Shown here piece by piece: positions 2,842-12,928 of a DNA stretch of 64,000 bases. The DNA is taken from assembly GCF_023277925.1 (NCBI RefSeq), contig NZ_CP063832.1:3463501-3527500 (forward strand). Direction: 5' to 3'. The position numbers and the translations under genes are program-made. Numbering within the stretch: position 1 is the stretch's first letter; each line of letters starts with the position of its first letter. This stretch comes from Pseudomonas entomophila (GTDB lineage Bacteria; Pseudomonadota; Gammaproteobacteria; Pseudomonadales; Pseudomonadaceae). The notes below the pieces were generated by a model. That model had not been told where the DNA came from and did no database searches. It worked only from the letters and a program-made list of their open reading frames with translations.

Positions 2842-3043
2842 CGGCTGTCTCCCTCGGTTTACGATTCCATAAAATTCCAAAGAAATATAAACCCGATACG
2901 CTTACCCGTCGAGACATGGGCGACGACCGTCCCACCGTGTCCAGCTCGCATCGCGCAACCGGCCGCTGATTCATATGCATCACCAAAGCCTGTATAAAGC
3001 GCCAGCAACCTGCGCCCCCGACGTCTGCCAAAGGAAACCCGCC

Positions 3044-3640
3044 ATGCTTCGGCCCTTGCTGCCAGCCCTGCTCCTGCTGCTTGCCGGCTGCGCCACCAAG
3101 CCCCCGGCCAACCCCGACAACCTCTGCGAGATCTTCCGCGAGAAGCCGAAATGGCACGAGGCGGCGTTGAAGGTGCAGGCGCGCTGGGGTGCGCCGGTGC
3201 AGGTGCCGATGGCGATGATGTACCAGGAGTCCTCGTTCAAGCACGACGCCCTGCCGCCGCGCTACTACTTCCTCGGCTTCATCCCCTGGGGCCGGGTGAG
3301 CAGCGCCTACGGCTACGCCCAGGCCAAGGACGAAACCTGGGCCGACTACAAGCGCGATGCCGGCGGCTGGGGCGCCGCCCGCGACGACTTCGCCGACGCG
3401 CTCGACTTCATGGGCTGGTACATGCAGAAGAGCCAGCAGGTGAATGGCGTGTCCAAGTGGGACGCCTATGGCCAGTACCTGAATTACCACGAAGGCTGGG
3501 GCGGCTACCGCAACCGCAGCTACGACGCCAAGCCGTGGCTGAAGAACGTGTCGCAGAAGGTTCAGGCGCGGGCTTCGGTGTTTGGGGCGCAGTACCGGAG
3601 TTGCGAGCAGGAACTGTCGCGGGGCGGGTGGTTCTGGTAG
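3044..3640 (+). CDS. Lysozyme-like/transglycosylase SLT-type lipoprotein
   Basis: A 198-residue predicted lipoprotein: the signal peptide MLRPLLPALLLLLAGC ends in a lipobox with the cysteine at residue 16. The mature part contains PMAMMYQESSFKHDA, matching the catalytic-glutamate motif of soluble lytic transglycosylases (Gln-Glu-Ser-Ser), then SSAYGYAQAKDETW, like the conserved Gly-Tyr-Ala-Gln segment of that fold. It is probably anchored in the outer membrane and acts on peptidoglycan. AAGGAAA nine bases before the ATG supports this start over an in-frame upstream one at 2975. Family membership is strong, but enzymatic activity is inferred. Confidence 0.8.
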   Translation: MLRPLLPALLLLLAGCATKPPANPDNLCEIFREKPKWHEAALKVQARWGAPVQVPMAMMYQESSFKHDALPPRYYFLGFIPWGRVSSAYGYAQAKDETWADYKRDAGGWGAARDDFADALDFMGWYMQKSQQVNGVSKWDAYGQYLNYHEGWGGYRNRSYDAKPWLKNVSQKVQARASVFGAQYRSCEQELSRGGWFW

Positions 3641-3760: not shown

Positions 3761-3991
3761 TCAGTCGCTAGAAACACCCTCTTCTTTCATCGCCTCCAGC
3801 TTGCCGAACTGCTCGCTGGCCAAGCGGCTGATGATCCGGATCGCCTGGTGAATGCCCGCCGTGTTGCGAAAGCTCAGCTGCGGGTTGTGCTCGCACTCCA
3901 GCACCTCGTCATGCTGGACCAGCGCCTCGCCGAGCAGTTCGAGGGTCCAGACGTAGCTTTGGAGGGTAGACAGGCGTTCGTGGTCAGGCAT
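3761..3991 (-). CDS. Small protein of unknown function, second ORF of C4-like cassette A
   Basis: A 76-residue soluble, mainly helical-looking protein (starts MPDHERLSTLQSYVWTLEL, ends EEGVSSD). I do not recognise the family. The ATG at 3991 has GGGAGGTG seven bases upstream. It overlaps the end of the preceding 46-codon ORF by eight bases (ATGCCTGA), so translation is probably coupled. The second cassette carries an almost identical protein at 5641-5871, differing only in the first residues and the last one. By position it corresponds to ant in the c4-icd-ant operon of phage P1, but there is no visible sequence relation to Ant. Confidence 0.7.
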   Translation of the reverse strand: MPDHERLSTLQSYVWTLELLGEALVQHDEVLECEHNPQLSFRNTAGIHQAIRIISRLASEQFGKLEAMKEEGVSSD

Positions 3992-4124
3992 GGGACACCT
4001 CCCGATTGGCGCAGGTGGCAAGGGACTGGCTATCGATCGGGTAGAAGGTTGGGGATGGGGTAACCGCAAGGGTTGGGCGGCGGAGAGCGGATGCGAGGAT
4101 CCTGCTCAGAATGCGAATAAGCAT
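3984..4124 (-). CDS. 46-codon ORF under antisense control, first ORF of cassette A
   Basis: The peptide is MLIRILSRILASALRRP then a Thr/Pro-rich middle and YPIDSQSLAT, 46 residues; the N-terminus is basic and amphipathic. GGAG lies eight bases before the ATG at 4124, inside the sequence (4134-4142) that complements the loop of the C4-like RNA just upstream. The copy in cassette B (5864-6001) has the same C-terminal three quarters. Position, size and overlap with the next ORF resemble icd of phage P1; no homology is claimed. An in-frame ATG at 4259 exists but would translate through the structured RNA, so I reject it. Confidence 0.6.
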   Translation of the reverse strand: MLIRILSRILASALRRPTLAVTPSPTFYPIDSQSLATCANREVSHA

Positions 4125-4181
4125 GCATGAGACTCCAAGTTTGAGATTGGAGCTACCACGATCCTTCCTACGGGATTGGGT

Positions 4182-4257
4182 GGCAGCTGTGCGTGGGGTA
4201 GGAATACCGGGAAACTTGGAACCCGGCCAGGCCGAAGCCTGCCCACGCACAGCCGCC
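4182..4257 (-). ncRNA. C4-like antisense RNA, copy A
   Basis: Read on the minus strand, a 16-bp outer stem (GGCGGCTGTGCGTGGG with CCCACGCACAGCTGCC) encloses two hairpins: CAGGC-UUCG-GCCUG and CCGGG...CCCGG with a 10-base loop. The loop segment (4212-4220) is complementary over 9 bases to 4134-4142, which covers the ribosome binding site of the next ORF, and the unpaired junction (4198-4204) is complementary over 7 bases to 4165-4171. This is the architecture of the C4 antisense RNA of phages P1/P7, which blocks translation of the gene behind it. Stem and target co-vary with copy B, which is strong internal support. Confidence 0.75.
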
Positions 4258-4276
4258 ATGACATCGCAGCAGACGC

Positions 4277-4308
4277 AAAAAAGGCGCCAGCCGTTGTGAT
4301 GGGGCGCC
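4277..4308 (-). terminator. Hairpin plus T6 just upstream of C4-like RNA A
   Basis: On the minus strand GGCGCC...GGCGCC (14-base loop) is followed directly by TTTTTT, about 20 bases before the C4-like RNA starts. Cassette B has the same element at 6154-6184 with a different loop. A rho-independent terminator 5' of the RNA either insulates the cassette from upstream transcription or attenuates its own leader. Confidence 0.55.
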
Positions 4309-4480
4309 TAGTGCGTGCGCCAAGTTTACCAGCAGGTTCCTACACCTGGCCGCAGGTTTTACTGCGACTTGGAGAATCTATCTCTACGGCGGATCGGTTC
4401 GCAACGGTTACGACTGAAGGAAACTTCCGAAAACGTCGAGAGATAGTTCTTCTAGGAGGATCGCCTCCCATAGGAAAGGC

Positions 4481-5640: not shown

Positions 5641-5871
5641 TCATTCGCTAGAAACACCCTCTTCTTTCATCGCCTCCAGCTTGCCGAACTGCTCGCTGGC
5701 CAACCGGCTGATGATCCGGATCGCCTGATGAATGCCCGCCGTGTTGCGGAAGCTCAGCTGCGGGTTGTGCTCGCACTCCAGCACTTCGTCATGCTGGACC
5801 AGCGCCTCGCCGAGCAGTTCGAGGGTCCAGACGTAGCTTTGGAGGGTAGACAGGCGTTCGTGGTCAAGCAC
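5641..5871 (-). CDS. Small protein of unknown function, second ORF of C4-like cassette B
   Basis: A 76-residue protein identical to the cassette A product except near the start (VLDHERL versus MPDHERL) and in the last residue. The start is a GTG at 5871, with GGGAGGTG seven bases upstream as in copy A. It overlaps the preceding 45-codon ORF by eight bases, as in copy A. No recognisable domain. Near-identity of this ORF against clear divergence of the RNA region upstream shows either gene conversion of this part or diversification of the control part. Confidence 0.7.
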   Translation of the reverse strand: MLDHERLSTLQSYVWTLELLGEALVQHDEVLECEHNPQLSFRNTAGIHQAIRIISRLASEQFGKLEAMKEEGVSSE

Positions 5872-6001
5872 GGGGCACCTCCCGGTTGGCGTGGGTGGCG
5901 AGGGATTGGCTGTCAATTGGGTAGAAGGTTTGGGACGGGGTGGCCGCGGGGGTTGGGCGGCGGAGAGCGGATGCGAGGATCCTCAGGATCTTGGTGGTCA
6001 T
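5864..6001 (-). CDS. 45-codon ORF under antisense control, first ORF of cassette B
   Basis: The peptide begins MTTKILRILASALRRP and, after a few substitutions, shares TFYPIDSQSLAT and the REV ending with cassette A. Its ribosome binding site AAAGGA falls in the 8-base sequence (6011-6018) that is complementary to the loop of its own C4-like RNA. The start codon is ten bases from that site, the same geometry as cassette A although the sequence differs. Both copies share ATGCATG at the start region. Confidence 0.6.
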   Translation of the reverse strand: MTTKILRILASALRRPTPAATPSQTFYPIDSQSLATHANREVPRA

Positions 6002-6057
6002 GCATGAGTTCCTTTCGTTGTGGAACTGCCACCGCTCGCGGCCAAGCAAGTTTAGGT

Positions 6058-6132
6058 GGCAGCAGTACGCGGGTTGGCCGACCGGGACGAAAGGGGCCCG
6101 GCACACCCGAAGGTGTCCCGCGCACCACCGCC
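6058..6132 (-). ncRNA. C4-like antisense RNA, copy B
   Basis: On the minus strand a 16-pair outer stem (GGCGGTGGTGCGCGGG with CCCGCGTACTGCTGCC, several G-U pairs) encloses ACACC-UUCG-GGUGU and CCGGG...CCCGG. All stems are kept relative to copy A although many bases differ. The third-hairpin loop (6087-6094) complements 6011-6018 over 8 bases, at the ribosome binding site of the next ORF; the junction (6074-6080) complements 6039-6045 over 7 bases. Both target distances match copy A. Same assignment as copy A: C4-type antisense regulator. Confidence 0.75.
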
Positions 6133-6153
6133 ATGACGCAACATCGCGGGCAC

Positions 6154-6184
6154 AAAAAAGCGCCTGCGATGGAGACTGGGCGCT
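6154..6184 (-). terminator. Hairpin plus T run just upstream of C4-like RNA B
   Basis: Minus-strand AGCGCC...GGCGCT followed by a T run, about 20 bases before the RNA; counterpart of 4277-4308. Further upstream on the minus strand TTGCAT and TAAATT are separated by 17 bases (complement of about 6245-6275), a weak candidate promoter for the cassette. Confidence 0.5.
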
Positions 6185-6261
6185 GTTGCGCCTTTCGATT
6201 CCGACCGGCCAAGGTCGCGTCGCCGATGCTTCGGCGACGGGGGGAATTTATTCCTTAGGGC

Positions 6262-6741
6262 CTGCTTATGCAAGCTTAGGATGGTTAGGAAAAGGCGATG
6301 GATGATGCGGGAAACTGCCTACAACACAAGGGCGCTTAGATTAGCCTCCTCAGCAGGCCGGTCCGGCGCAGATGAACGAGGCTTGATCAAGGTCTACGAA
6401 GAACGGTGCGGAGACAGGAATCGAATATAGCACCAGAAGGCCACGGATTATAAGGAAATGGCGATTCGAAATCACTTAACGTATCCCTAAATAGAAATCT
6501 GCCTAGGCCGCCCCGAGGAAGACTGGGATGCACTAAAAAATCCGGGGCTGAGGCCTGTTTTGGGTGCTAGGGACACTCGGTAACGGTTGTTGGCTCCAGT
6601 TGCGGACTCTCTGCCAGGCGATTGCACGACTTGCTGGCGCTCGGTCGTAGCCGTTCTTTAGTGATGGGTTGCTCTGACTCTACTTTTGATTGCGGAGTTT
6701 AAGTGGGCTCTATACCAGATCATAGGGATGGAGCTTGCCCA
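6262..6741. other. Gap without recognisable gene
   Basis: About 480 bases of mixed composition between cassette B and the Ntn-hydrolase-like gene. I see no credible ORF, tRNA or strong hairpin on either strand. Probably debris of earlier insertions. Confidence 0.4.
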
Positions 6742-8395: not shown

Positions 8396-8506
8396 CATGG
8401 TTGGCCGCTATCGACCCTAAACCCACAAATTGTTACCTTCAGCCGCATCCCCAGATTCACAGCGCGAGCCGATTCTGTGTTGGCAGTTTATGAAGGTGAG
8501 CCACCT

Positions 8507-11500
8507 ATGTCTGAAGATATCAAGAACACCGCGATTACCGCCGCAGGTTACATCTATCAGAACCGTCAAGGCCTCAGGGTCCTTTGCGATTGGCTTGACG
8601 CACCGGCGCGCTACACCCGTGTGAAGTTTGAGTGCGACGACGAGGCCGTCGCGCCGACGGGTCTGGATGACATCGTTGTCGAGCGTACAGATGGTCTGGT
8701 AGATCTTCAGCAGGTCAAGTTCACCCCGAACGCAAACGTGCATTTGCTTTGTTGGGATTGGATGCTCGAAAAGACCGGCAAGACTGCGCGCTCAAGGTCA
8801 ATGCTGCGAAAGTGGTTCGATGCCTTCAAGGCGCTGGACCCGGTGCGTACTGGCATTCTCTCGTTGTCGACCAACCGCCGGCCTGATGCCGATATTGAAG
8901 CTTGCCTGGACGGCGGCAAAATCTCCTTTGCCAAGATCCCCGAGCCCAGGCGTTCTGAGATCATCGCTGAGCTTGGTGGCGAGCACGACTGCGAGGCGTT
9001 CTTCAGCCAATTGCACATTTTTCACAGCGACAAGGGGTTCGACACGCTGGAACAAGAAGTCGATGCACGACTTCGCAAGCACGGCACTCTTGAGGGCATT
9101 GCCACCCTCAAGAACATCGCGTTGAACTGGGCGACGCAGATGAACTCCCCGCCTCCGAACGGTTGGATCACGCTGGAGCAGGTTCGCACCATCCTGCGCT
9201 CGACACCGCCGGCCCCTTTACCTGAGGACTTCGTTGTCCCTCTGGGTTACGAGGTGCCCGATGAGACATTCCACCGGGAGTTCGTCCGTGACGCCGTCGG
9301 AGCTACCGGGTGTGCGATCGTGCTCACGGGGCCGCCAGGCCGTGGAAAGAGCACTTACCTAAGCGCGCTGTGCGACACGCTCGCCGAGCGGGACATCCCC
9401 ACGGTCCGACACCACTACTTCCTCTCGACGACGGAGCGGGGGCGAGACCGGGTGAACAGTTACGTGGTCGAGCAATCTATTGAAGCCCAGATCAAACGGT
9501 TTCATCCCGATGTCCACGCCCCAGGGAGTGACCTGCGCTCGCTCCTTGAAGCGTGTGCTTCTCACTACAGCAAACTGGCCAAGCCATTCGTGCTTGTATT
9601 AGACGGCCTGGATCACGTCTGGCGCGTTAATTCTGAGGACAAGCGGCCGCTGGACGATGTGTTCTCCCAGGTGATTCCATGCCCGAAAAACATGGTGTTG
9701 CTCGTGGGTACCCAACCTGTGGACGACGCCCAGTTGCCAACGGACCTGCTTGCATTCGCGCCCAAGGCCGAGTGGCGCACGCTGCCCTCGATGTCTGAGA
9801 GCGCTGTATTGTCCTATTTGCGCAAGGCGTCTCAGGAGGGCAGGCTTACGACTGGCCTTGAGGGGGGGGATGGCGCGGAAAGACAACTGCAGGAAGCTGC
9901 AACCGCGCTTTGTACAAAGACCAATGGCCATCCTCTACACGTCATCTATGCTGCCGCGGAGCTTGAACATACCGGTCGCAACTTGACGAAATGGGATGTC
10001 GAGCAGTTGAGGGGGGATTTGAGCAAGAATGCAAAGTTCTACTACGCATCGCTTTGGGAAGGTCTTTCTCCAAGCCTCAAGGACACGCTGAGGCTCGTCT
10101 GTGCCTTCCCGTTCTTCTGGCCTAGGGCAGCATTCGGAGAGATCGCCGCGAGAGTCGGTGCGGCAGCGCCGAACGTCACGAACGTGGAGCATCTACTTCA
10201 CTCTTCGGCGGCTGGCCTGAAGGTTTTCCACGAGAGTCTGGCGGTCTTCGTGCGCGCAACCGCAAGCTACGCCGAACGCATCAACGAGCTGATGCCCGCA
10301 GTCGCAAGCTGGTTGGAGAGCGCTGCCCCTACCTCACTGCGCGTTAACTGGCTCTGGACGGTCCAGGCAAGGCTGGGTAACCCCAAGAACCTCATAACAG
10401 GCCTCACCCGCGATTGGATCATGCTCCGCTTGGAGGAGGGATATCCAGAGTCGCTCTTTGACACGCTGCTGTCCGATGCTCTAGTCGCAGCGCTGGAAAC
10501 CAACGAGTTTGCTGAAGCCTATAGACTGGAGCACCTCAAGGCACGGATGGTCGGTGGCAGTCAGTACCAGATACAGAACGACGACATGGCCAGGCTGATC
10601 TCATTCACATTGGTCCTTACCGCAGAGGAGGGCGTCGTGCGTGAGGCTGTGGCCTCCAGGCATGAGACGGACATCCTTCGTCTTGCCGCACTCGGGTTGG
10701 CCCTGCATGCTCGGGGCGACGAGGTTCTGGCCGAAACGTGCGGTGAAGAAGCTCTTCGTCGGTTCAGAGGCTTGAGCCGTTTTTCTAGCAGGTACTCGTC
10801 GAGCGCTGGCTCTGATGAGTTCCAGTTCCTGGTAGATGCATTTGCGCGGCTTGGGGCCATCGGCGCGACCCCGACAGCGCTGGTCCGGCTGGTTTCCGAA
10901 AACGAGCCTGTCGTTTGGCTGCCCAGAGTCCAGATGCTGGTTGATGAGGGCAATTTGGATGACTTGATGGCGGCCGTTGAGTTGCTCGCCCCAGGTAAGA
11001 GCAAGAACATGATCAGCGATGCATGCATTCGCGCTGCCGCGACCGCCGGAGTGAGCATCGCCGAGCGCGATGACTTCGGTGAGCTTGCCAGGACACCCTT
11101 AGTCGCTGCTGTAGAGGCGGCCTGCACCCAGGTGTCCAGGCCGTTGAACGAGCCTATCCCCATTGAATGGCTCAAGGGCAATTACTACGAGCGCAAGGAA
11201 GATTTGGCAACGCTCGCGCACCACTGGTTTTTCAGCGCTGTTCATCTGAGCCTGTGCATGGCAGCGGAATGTCAGACCTCGTTTGAGTTCGTGCGGGCCC
11301 CCGTCTTCGAAGAAAGGAGAAACATCACCGAATTCCTCAACGCACTCTCTATGGTCGCAGCGCAGGTTTCGCAGCATTGGTGGCGAGGAGAGTTCGTGGA
11401 CTTCCATGAGCTGTTCGAGTTGCTCAAACCGGTGGAGTTCAGGAGGTTCAGGCAAAGCTATGACGAGAGCTCTGCCGCTGAGGACTTTCAAAGTGCGCTG

Positions 11501-12928
11501 CATCGCATTGCCTGCGACATCCATCTGGGAAGTATTTTGCTGGGCCACTTCGACGACGTGGTTTTGTCCGAAGAAACCATGGAAGCGGCCGCGCAGTGCG
11601 CTTGGTTTGACAGTGCGTCCTTCCGCACCCATTACGCGATTGGATTGCTGACGAGGATGAGCGACGATGCGGCGGGGGCCTTCGTCCAGTACCAGCGTAA
11701 ACTTCTTGATGCAGAGATCCGCCGGGAAACCAGCGTGCATCTTCAGACACCACTTCAGCTCTGTGCCATTGCGCTAGCACACGGGTTGAGCAGTAGCGCT
11801 CGAGAGTTGTGCAAGCAGACGTGGGAACTTACAACCGGCTATGCGCATCGCAAGGACCCTACGCTTAACAACACGGTCGATGCTCTCGGCTATCTGGCCG
11901 ATGTCGCACCAGACGACGCTCGCCGGTTGCTCAGCCTTATCGCTTCGCAGATCCACCACGTCTTAGACTACACCGACGGGAAGGGCACGAGACATGTTCT
12001 AACGGCCACCGATCGGCTTCTTGCGAAGTTAAAGCCGTCAGTTTTGGTCGTCAAGTACGGGGAGCATACGCACGTAGGCGACTGGTCGCTGGCAGAAGAC
12101 AGTCTGCGTGCATATGTGGAGCAAGGTGTCAAAGAAGGTTGGCCCTTGGACGCGTTAATGCGAACCGGACTGCATTCTGAGGTTCATGACGCGCTAACGC
12201 AACTTACAAAGGAAGGCAGCTCAAGCGCTGCGGAGCGACTTCGCATCTTACAAGAGCACGTCGGTTGGGACATTGGCCTGCTGCAGCGTTCGGAGCACAC
12301 CGGCAGCGATAGAGAGAGCAAGCCTTTTACCGGCGATGTCGCAAACTTTGCGCCGGAACAATTCGGTGAATTGCTCGATAGCCTATCGACCAGCTACAAC
12401 GAGAAAGCGAGGCTTCTTCGTACTTGGTACCAGCATTGGGACAAGGCTGGTCAAGGAAAGCGACTGCTCGTCGCACTGGGCGACTTGCTTCTATCAGAAG
12501 AGGGGCGGCGTAAAGACGTCTTGGTGTTGTCCGACCTGGCCTTTCAGACAAGACGTAAGCTGAGTGGCGTAAAGGCGGCATGGAAGTATCTTGTCCAGGC
12601 GCACATCCATAACGGTGGCTGGATCGGGTTTACTGAGAACGTGGAGAAAACCTGCAGCAGGCTCGATTTGGTCGTCAAGCACTATCCGCAGCGCTGCGAC
12701 GAGTTTGTGGCTGCGACAACCTACGGTATGTTTAGTGACCCAGAACCGCCACGTGTAGCGCCCACAGAACTAATGGTCTACTTCTATGCGCGACAAGAGC
12801 GGATCGCTGATGCTGTGAGGTTCGCCGAGACGATGGTTAACTGCGTCATTGAAGACACTCGTACCCTGCCTTTGGAGCGGCCTCGCTGGGCGGCTGAGTT
12901 GGTATCTTCTACGGAGGCGGAGGCTTGA
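8507..12928 (+). CDS. Nuclease-STAND NTPase, probable antiphage (Avs/NLR-like) protein
   Basis: A 1473-residue protein. Residues 1-200: a Cap4/DUF4297-like nuclease domain, GYIYQNRQGL at 14-23, then LDDIVVER at 53-60 and QQVK at 68-71, a PD-(D/E)xK-type core. Residues 260-500: P-loop NTPase with Walker A GPPGRGKS (275-282), Walker B FVLVLDGLDHVW (361-372) and a helical/winged-helix segment ending in a HESLAVFVR motif typical of STAND proteins. Residues about 600-1473: alpha-solenoid-like, no recognised repeat. I start at 8507 (AAGGTGA eight bases upstream). The next gene overlaps by four bases. Related proteins (Avs, bacterial NLRs) sense phage proteins and cut DNA; this role is inferred. Confidence 0.75.
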   Translation: MSEDIKNTAITAAGYIYQNRQGLRVLCDWLDAPARYTRVKFECDDEAVAPTGLDDIVVERTDGLVDLQQVKFTPNANVHLLCWDWMLEKTGKTARSRSMLRKWFDAFKALDPVRTGILSLSTNRRPDADIEACLDGGKISFAKIPEPRRSEIIAELGGEHDCEAFFSQLHIFHSDKGFDTLEQEVDARLRKHGTLEGIATLKNIALNWATQMNSPPPNGWITLEQVRTILRSTPPAPLPEDFVVPLGYEVPDETFHREFVRDAVGATGCAIVLTGPPGRGKSTYLSALCDTLAERDIPTVRHHYFLSTTERGRDRVNSYVVEQSIEAQIKRFHPDVHAPGSDLRSLLEACASHYSKLAKPFVLVLDGLDHVWRVNSEDKRPLDDVFSQVIPCPKNMVLLVGTQPVDDAQLPTDLLAFAPKAEWRTLPSMSESAVLSYLRKASQEGRLTTGLEGGDGAERQLQEAATALCTKTNGHPLHVIYAAAELEHTGRNLTKWDVEQLRGDLSKNAKFYYASLWEGLSPSLKDTLRLVCAFPFFWPRAAFGEIAARVGAAAPNVTNVEHLLHSSAAGLKVFHESLAVFVRATASYAERINELMPAVASWLESAAPTSLRVNWLWTVQARLGNPKNLITGLTRDWIMLRLEEGYPESLFDTLLSDALVAALETNEFAEAYRLEHLKARMVGGSQYQIQNDDMARLISFTLVLTAEEGVVREAVASRHETDILRLAALGLALHARGDEVLAETCGEEALRRFRGLSRFSSRYSSSAGSDEFQFLVDAFARLGAIGATPTALVRLVSENEPVVWLPRVQMLVDEGNLDDLMAAVELLAPGKSKNMISDACIRAAATAGVSIAERDDFGELARTPLVAAVEAACTQVSRPLNEPIPIEWLKGNYYERKEDLATLAHHWFFSAVHLSLCMAAECQTSFEFVRAPVFEERRNITEFLNALSMVAAQVSQHWWRGEFVDFHELFELLKPVEFRRFRQSYDESSAAEDFQSALHRIACDIHLGSILLGHFDDVVLSEETMEAAAQCAWFDSASFRTHYAIGLLTRMSDDAAGAFVQYQRKLLDAEIRRETSVHLQTPLQLCAIALAHGLSSSARELCKQTWELTTGYAHRKDPTLNNTVDALGYLADVAPDDARRLLSLIASQIHHVLDYTDGKGTRHVLTATDRLLAKLKPSVLVVKYGEHTHVGDWSLAEDSLRAYVEQGVKEGWPLDALMRTGLHSEVHDALTQLTKEGSSSAAERLRILQEHVGWDIGLLQRSEHTGSDRESKPFTGDVANFAPEQFGELLDSLSTSYNEKARLLRTWYQHWDKAGQGKRLLVALGDLLLSEEGRRKDVLVLSDLAFQTRRKLSGVKAAWKYLVQAHIHNGGWIGFTENVEKTCSRLDLVVKHYPQRCDEFVAATTYGMFSDPEPPRVAPTELMVYFYARQERIADAVRFAETMVNCVIEDTRTLPLERPRWAAELVSSTEAEA

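Follow-up and report, generated by a model that had tools for sequence, protein, structure and literature searches.

The locus described here raises the question of what an antisense RNA of a kind known from phage immunity may be doing in a bacterial chromosome. It lies in a 64,000-nt stretch of the Pseudomonas entomophila chromosome (NZ_CP063832.1, positions 3,463,501 to 3,527,500; hereafter, the window), in which the original prediction, made from the sequence alone, had described a three-way-junction RNA with complementarity to two sites in its own downstream transcript, followed by two overlapping ORFs. The closest known counterpart is the C4 RNA (RF01695) of the phages P1 and P7, encoded in the immI operon c4-icd-ant, which likewise folds into a three-way junction and carries two pairing segments, one of them directed at a ribosome binding site. 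In P1 and P7, the genes icd and ant overlap. Differing C4 codes are described as the cause of the heteroimmunity of the two phages (PMC5320573, PMC12197685).

Organization of the C4 units in the window

The covariance search for C4 RNA that the original prediction had called for was positive: both C4 RNAs found in the window, with 83.2 and 77.2 bits, exceed the RF01695 gathering score of 45 bits (Table 1). On re-reading, the proposed pairing of the loop (nine of nine) and of the junction (seven of seven) was exact in all coordinates, the loop target did cover the ribosome binding site of ORF1, and the eight-base overlap of ORF1 (4124-3984) with ORF2 (3991-3761) was also exact, an arrangement as if the two were translationally coupled. 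ORF1 of this unit (unit A) begins with two overlapping start codons (ATGCATG). We label the sites by their place, a being the upstream target and b the target at the ribosome site.

Table 1. Features of the two C4 units, with positions numbered from the first nucleotide of the window.
Feature	Position	Strand	Basis
C4 antisense RNA, unit A, code alpha	4176..4263	-	Rfam RF01695, 83.2 bits, E 7.4e-15
Hairpin loop segment b' TCCAAGTTT, unit A	4212..4220	-	9/9 complementary to 4134-4142 (AAACTTGGA)
Junction segment a' TTCCTAC, unit A	4198..4204	-	7/7 complementary to 4165-4171 (GTAGGAA)
Target a2, unit A, GTAGGAA	4165..4171	-	Read from sequence
Target b2, unit A, AAACTTGGA, covering GGAG ribosome binding site (4136-4133)	4134..4142	-	Sequence
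Predicted promoter, unit A: -35 TTGCGA (4404-4399), 17 nt, -10 ATAGAT (4381-4376)	4376..4404	-	Sequence
Leader, unit A: c4-a1b1-like (4329-4381) and isrK-like (4277-4368), with terminator	4277..4381	-	RF03163, RF01394
a1, unit A: second copy of junction target (GTAGGAA)	4337..4343	-	Sequence
b1, unit A: second copy of loop target (AAACTTGG), overlapping 5' arm of leader hairpin	4320..4327	-	Sequence
Alternative hairpins, unit A: arm a GGCGC 4321-4317, arm b GGCGCC 4308-4303, arm c GGCGCC 4288-4283, U-run 4282-4277	4277..4321	-	Sequence
ORF1, unit A, 46 codons, from second ATG of ATGCATG; probable leader ORF	3984..4124	-	Stop position, weak protein conservation
ORF2, unit A, 76 codons; conserved small protein, predicted helical hairpin	3761..3991	-	48/398 species, pN/pS, AlphaFold2
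C4 antisense RNA, unit B, code delta; b' 6087-6094, a' 6074-6080	6052..6138	-	RF01695, 77.2 bits
Targets, unit B: a2 6039-6045 (TTGGCCG), b2 6011-6018 (ACGAAAGG)	6011..6045	-	Sequence
Predicted promoter, unit B: TTGCAT (6273-6268), 17 nt, TAAATT (6250-6245)	6245..6273	-	Sequence
Leader, unit B: c4-a1b1-like (6198-6251), a1 6206-6212, b1 6191-6198, U-run 6154-6159	6154..6251	-	RF03163, sequence
ORF1, unit B, 45 codons	5864..6001	-	Sequence
ORF2, unit B, 76 codons, GTG start (own reading); 8 nt overlap with ORF1	5641..5871	-	Sequence

A second whole unit (unit B, 5641-6273) has the same layout with another code. Its loop CCUUUCGU matches ACGAAAGG, and its junction CGGCCAA matches TTGGCCG. The ORF2 genes of the two units are 92% identical over 195 nt, whereas their C4 RNAs are only 62-67% identical.

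Both RNAs are preceded by a leader that carries a further copy of each target, so that complementary sites lie upstream as well as downstream of C4. The leader of unit A resembles two other Rfam families, c4-a1b1 (RF03163; 39.2 bits, E 9e-8, below the cutoff of 46.7) and isrK (RF01394; 47.0 bits, E 2e-8, below the cutoff of 50), and a close relative, L086, passes both cutoffs (55.2 and 54.9 bits, respectively); in addition, the relative L093 lies above the RF03163 cutoff and L003 above that of RF01394 (50.5 bits). The leader of unit B scored 30.6 bits with RF03163 (E 3.5e-5, below the same cutoff), and RF01394 was absent from its matches at E 5. The leader consensus, for each of the four code types defined below, runs in the order b1, GGCGC, loop, GCGCC, spacer, GGCGC(C) and U-run; folding was conducted for one example per code type. 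The arms of the terminator hardly vary among the units, and covariation support for a hairpin switch is therefore absent. At the place of the promoters predicted for units A and B, the consensus of all four types has TTG and an A/T-rich stretch resembling a -10 element, and a loose TTGNNN-N16-18-TA pattern precedes 15 of the 28 C4 RNAs of the window genome, against 0.9 expected from shuffles.

Three further features of the window may be mentioned. The C-terminal remnant of an IS66 transposase (PF13817; 4481-4618, plus strand) lies between the two C4 units. A regulator with an HTH domain and an IrrE-type peptidase domain (PF01381, PF06114; NCBIfam spr1629-like below cutoff) is encoded at 1759-2880 on the minus strand, and a 1483-aa protein with a NACHT ATPase domain (PF05729, E 4e-12), possibly a defence gene, at 8477-12928 on the plus strand.

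Distribution of C4 units

The locus had been taken for a single chromosomal circuit. It is, instead, one of 28 C4 units above the Rfam cutoff in the window genome (5.76 Mb, one contig; G000), and belongs to a genus-wide family; none was found above the cutoff in 14 control genomes. At E 0.001, C4 was detected in 367 of 398 sampled Pseudomonas species (the window's own included), at most 10 candidates being scored per genome. Deeper scoring of 40 species gave between 0 and 42 copies, with a median of 14 and at least 10 copies in 26 species; these counts include matches below the cutoff, as with 3 of the 42 in the genome G005. An order-level sample contained C4 in 44 of 293 genomes, 38 of these outside the genus Pseudomonas; 37 of the 38 had 1 to 6 copies and one had 13, with at most 14 scored per genome. 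This classic phage antisense RNA would accordingly form a large chromosomal regulatory family, present in most sampled species of the genus, for which cis targets can be named. One C4 unit is situated ~1.1 kb from the tmRNA gene (L006:1-376), a common integration site.

Fit of the RNAs to their own targets

In the window genome, the junction segment forms a longest Watson-Crick run of 7-8 with its own downstream site in all 28 units, compared with a mean of 4.7 for the sites of other units; for the loop, which fits unevenly, the mean is 7.7 (4 to 12) with the own site and 4.7 with others. When the 28 units were randomly re-paired 20,000 times, the observed mean was not attained once in any of eight measures. 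Duplex energies, which are a crude measure, amounted to -25.8 kcal/mol for own and -15.3 kcal/mol for other targets in the window genome, and to -22.6 and -14.0 kcal/mol in G005 (42 units); in neither genome was any of 20,000 re-pairings as good. Judged by these values, the insulation of the codes is imperfect, as only 21 of 28 RNAs and 29 of 42 RNAs, respectively, had their own target as the best one, and 49 of 756 and 139 of 1722 non-cognate pairs lay within 2 kcal/mol of the cognate one.

Matches at both sites were also common in the genus. Among 56 C4 loci (one top-scoring hit per listed species, hence not a random set, with two loci too short to parse counted as misses), a match of at least 7 nt was present at a2 in 52, at b2 in 46 and at both in 45, while letter-shuffled targets reached 7 nt at a rate of 0.5% (a2) and 2.9% (b2). 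Twenty loci of other genera, chosen by hand from the listing, kept a2 in 18 cases and b2 in 16, and from these sequences the two-site logic looks general for C4.

Neighbouring genes that are nearly identical can have rewritten codes: C4 identity is 0.67 for L002/L005, 0.84 for L001/L003 and 0.72 for L015/L028, against gene-region identities of 0.91, 0.98 and 0.95. L003, the tandem neighbour of L001, has the same loop and another junction with a fitting target, and its gene contains an in-frame stop.

These observations bear on the possibility that C4 RNAs have their main targets in trans, among other mRNAs, the local match being a by-product of ancestry. Some cross-pairs are indeed strong, some C4 RNAs persist without a gene (see below), and bacterial targets have been proposed for the C4-like RNAs of Acinetobacter baumannii (PMC5320573). 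However, in each of the code types the local target has changed along with the RNA, and a principal role in trans seems to us very improbable.

Code types and their exchange

For the typing of units related to unit A, 72 of 74 ORF2 matches were entered (two short fragments were left out); one had no coverage by fetched DNA, eight were without C4 according to the script (mostly fragments, although that of G089 does have a C4 of another code) and one had another code. Units were counted by position, so that identical copies stay separate. The first version of the C4 finder recovered 25 of the 28 known units, and the later versions were looser. The remaining 62 units could be assigned by loop and junction to four types, namely delta (21), gamma (18), alpha (14) and beta (9), each of them with fitting targets; beta and gamma have a common junction segment.

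The RNA and the gene show opposite patterns of similarity. C4 identity is 0.968 within a type across species and 0.716 between copies of one genome, while ORF2 identity is 0.904 within a genome and 0.812 within a type across genomes. Quartets grouped C4 by type in 37 cases against 0, and ORF2 by genome in 28 against 8 with one tie; the stretch between them was mixed, with 14 by genome versus 23 by type. This suggests that the coding gene is homogenised within each genome while the code is kept apart.

At the locus of a lipoprotein gene (window 2975-3640), which is convergent with the unit and ~80-246 nt away, 10 species carry a unit, of type alpha in 2, beta in 5, gamma in 1 and delta in 2. 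According to this comparison of sequences, the codes are not tied to a locus, and discrete types have been exchanged at one site. An origin of the types as ancient paralogues, with one code per locus, is ruled out by this exchange.

Small proteins encoded by the C4 units

In the window genome, a small ORF follows each of the 28 C4 RNAs at 44-59 nt (starts by our own reading), and its product opens with the motif (V/L)PDPP in 26 units and with KIVPDPP in 21. Nine such products were scanned against Pfam, of which two pass the DUF3077 cutoff and one is near DUF3077 and DUF6124. Nine products scanned from G005 included Bro-N in three (E 3e-10, 1e-10 and 8e-9), DUF6124 in two and DUF3077 in one; for some of the 42 units of that genome an evident ORF is missing. 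Bro-N is a phage antirepressor-type domain, and DUF3077 and DUF6124 are families without an assigned function. The occurrence of Bro-N products among the C4 units suggests that the cassette derives from phage antirepressor modules in which the gene has since been swapped out. Another recurrent small ORF driven by C4, of ~52 aa and the type MHALNPSKIRAAAHRAMALAALHANSSL, was observed at several loci among L029-L084; similar ORFs exist in other genera, and it may be an icd-like leader.

ORF1 and ORF2 of the window matched no Pfam family, DUF3077 and DUF6124 included, and no antirepressor family in Pfam, NCBIfam or PHROGs. ORF2 had a single match below the cutoff in NCBIfam and two weak matches of unassigned function in PHROGs (E 6e-4 and 0.02). 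The expected lack of relationship to icd and ant thus holds at the level of families, through which alone the two were compared: no described icd or ant family was matched in the three collections. By its sequence, the unit is a C4 RNA, but not the P1 immI operon. As for DUF3077/DUF6124 proteins, which are products of other C4 units in the genus, a product of the MLKIVPDPP type is also predicted to form two helices; homology of ORF2 with these products was nevertheless rejected, as a profile comparison with hhalign gave 0.7%.

Relatives of ORF2 occur in 48 of the 398 sampled species, and the named entries among 120 listed homologues are from Pseudomonas only. The AlphaFold2 model (pLDDT 81) consists of two helices, 3-34 and 42-74, for which a fold search in the PDB returned only generic helical pairs (best E 0.54). 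The suspected toxin or host-takeover gene found no backing here, since no toxin family and no phage or plasmid record was matched and the fold predicted for ORF2 is a plain helical hairpin. Our guess from the model is that its product might be a protein-binding adaptor that replaced a phage antirepressor.

With codons that read as stops skipped, pN/pS was 0.37 for ORF2, against 0.94 for ORF1 in the second-ATG frame and 0.76 in the first-ATG frame. This ratio indicates that ORF2 is under purifying selection, and the values for its two frames rule out ORF1 as a conserved protein. Its start ATGCATG is present in 61 of the 62 typed units, and in 52 of 61 units of the family the second-ATG frame stops 8 nt inside ORF2. 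A comparable case is orf45 of the Salmonella prophage Gifsy-1, which is conserved in nucleotides and not in protein and is coupled to the next gene; coupling within IsrK/orf45/anrP was demonstrated by mutation (PMC4825925). Because its stop position is kept, its protein is near neutral and orf45 is alike, ORF1 is best read, from these sequence features, as a leader by which ORF2 is tied to the silenced ribosome site. Some typed units (L096, L097, L104) have an in-frame stop in ORF2, and some of the counted copies are therefore not live genes.

The units could also be ordinary remnants of prophage immunity, that is, modules of the c4-icd-ant type left by decayed phages and without a role in the host. 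The C4, c4-a1b1 and isrK families were described from phages, Bro-N proteins are the products of three C4 units in G005, Bro-N-like genes often follow the C4 units of other genera (as judged by eye), and the weak PHROG matches of ORF2 point in the same direction. Against this, ORF2 and one DUF3077-like product had no match in 50,697 phage and 72,556 plasmid records, a set that may omit records very near the window's genome. The scan of 54 of the 75 ORFs flanking the 28 units yielded nine PHROG families at E 1e-10, each represented by a single member; five of them have no function assigned, two are toxin-antitoxin proteins, and the others are a transposase and a zinc alcohol dehydrogenase. None was named as structural or as an integrase, and the Pfam matches of the flanking ORFs include host enzymes. 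The spread over 367 of 398 sampled species and the selection on ORF2 also speak against mere remnants, and we consider this explanation highly unlikely.

Proposed silencing mechanism

On the basis of these comparisons, we consider it likely that the units are silencing cassettes of the P1-C4/IsrK type which have been domesticated and multiplied with their codes kept distinct, and in which C4 is predicted to silence its own gene pair. Such a cassette would consist of a leader (a1/b1 sites and terminator), the C4 RNA, a2 and b2, the short ORF1 and the overlapping ORF2. Transcription would start at the predicted promoter, and a fraction of the transcripts would end at the isrK-like terminator, the leader thereby setting the amount of transcript; the read-through RNA would be cut by RNase P to give C4. 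With C4 on a2 and b2, the ribosome site of ORF1 would be covered, and ORF2 would also be stopped via the coupling.

In the leader, b1 overlaps the first hairpin arm, and C4 bound there should therefore favour the terminator: with a1/b1 occupied, arm b would be freed to pair with arm c as the terminator hairpin, resulting in less C4 transcription, as with the CI RNA of phage P4. Surplus leader RNA, in turn, could soak up C4. This C4-driven switch is a prediction from the layout, from the folding of one example per type and from the analogy with P4, whose CI RNA, with seqA/seqC, is a processed antisense RNA that pairs with sites on both its sides and brings about early termination (PMC4825925). 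As far as that description goes, the likeness lies in the sites flanking C4 on both sides, while an effect on termination is here predicted only.

The sign of leader control could be the reverse, given that the leader RNA of Gifsy-1 activates. The isrK-orf45-anrP operon shares with our units an isrK-like terminated leader and a short ORF with two starts coupled to the next gene (PMC4825925); unlike in our units, for which no phage neighbours were found, its product is described as antirepressor-like. If the Gifsy-1 logic applied in full, the short leader RNA would be the active regulator that turns translation on, and C4 would be the partner strand in an inactive mRNA fold. IsrK supplied in trans raises orf45-anrP translation >100-fold (PMC4825925), and the leader of unit A resembles isrK, although below the Rfam cutoff. 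However, an intrinsic terminator before C4 was seen by eye in only 4 of the 28 units of the window genome (L001, L002, L003, L005), whereas all 28 keep the complementarity to a2, which suggests that the pairing is independent of a terminated leader RNA; an activating leader seems an unlikely explanation, and silencing by C4 is preferred.

The proposed cassettes differ from P1/P7 in being chromosomal, in numbering up to 42 per genome, with four main codes exchanged between loci and species, and in encoding small proteins for which no antirepressor role is known. A. baumannii likewise has C4-like RNAs in many copies per genome; its multi-copy C4-like sRNAs of Group 1 (21 sequences) are expressed and apparently processed by RNase P in RNA-seq, and the passages of that account considered here name no cis targets (PMC5320573), unlike the present units, for which cis targets and a code were identified. 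Among open-licence papers, without supplements such as that of Weinberg 2010 on c4/c4-a1b1, we found none linking C4 RNA to these Pseudomonas genes. As far as these searches show, neither the multiplication on chromosomes of the genus nor the cis targets nor the private and exchangeable codes had been described before. The regulated proteins of the DUF3077, DUF6124 and ORF2 types constitute an unexplained gene family.

Code sharing and orphan RNAs

Copies of the ORF2 family that reside in one genome did not share a code in our sample. The 16 genomes that contain two or more typed copies provide 22 co-resident pairs, of which none had a common code, compared with 5.7 on average after shuffling (P 0.001), with 0 of 13 among near pairs (within 20 kb; P 0.017) and 0 of 9 among far pairs (P 0.067), all these P values being optimistic, since species were treated as independent with relatedness uncorrected. 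A few of the typed copies have an in-frame stop in ORF2. Over all C4 units, there were 28 distinct codes in the 28 units of the window genome and 41 in the 42 units of G005. The sole identical pair in G005 is the tandem L197/L198, 850 bp apart, in which one gene lacks b2, the ribosome site and the start codon, and the other is intact.

A shared code would let one copy silence another, and only copies with a private code would therefore stay expressible; selection would then act against shared codes. The codes might instead differ because identical neighbouring copies recombine and collapse, and not because sharing is harmful. Tandem repeats are prone to loss, and 13 of the 22 co-resident pairs are separated by no more than 20 kb, as this explanation would have it. 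On the other hand, ORF2 is 90% identical within genomes, so that recombination seems to be active, yet the codes stay apart; distant pairs do not share codes either (0 of 9, P 0.067), code types have been exchanged at one locus, and G005 retains an identical-code tandem pair with one gene inactivated. We regard collapse by recombination as the doubtful one of the two explanations, with a real but minor chance of being correct.

Taking selection against shared codes further, we tentatively envisage an antisense "incompatibility" system, for which we would claim somewhat less than an even chance: dozens of privately locked genes with swappable codes, in which a gene could stay alive only where its code has no co-resident, and orphan C4 RNAs would provide immunity against returning genes. 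Such a system would be self-orthogonalising and would have arisen from phage heteroimmunity. Dozens of distinct natural RNA/target pairs in one cell would offer a direct test bed for the evolution and insulation of antisense specificity, and the rule of one code and one live gene per genome is testable by genome surveys and cassette swaps.

C4 RNAs of the delta type without ORF2 were found in five genomes (G104, G110, G174, G200 and G257), and no delta unit was present among the typed units of these five; in the first four, the orphan occupies a locus that had been fetched because of its beta unit. G102, G104 and G200 contain an orphan whose code is gamma-like, with a slightly changed loop. 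A gamma unit complete with its gene is also present in G200, and this case may mean either that a small change insulates the two or that exclusion is not strict. The gene-less delta-type and gamma-like RNAs (L086, L089, L090, L091, L118 and L131) keep the stem, with 15-17 of 17 P1 positions paired. L131 is the site of a gamma unit and the other five are loci of beta units; at L086, three C4 RNAs lie within 500 nt.
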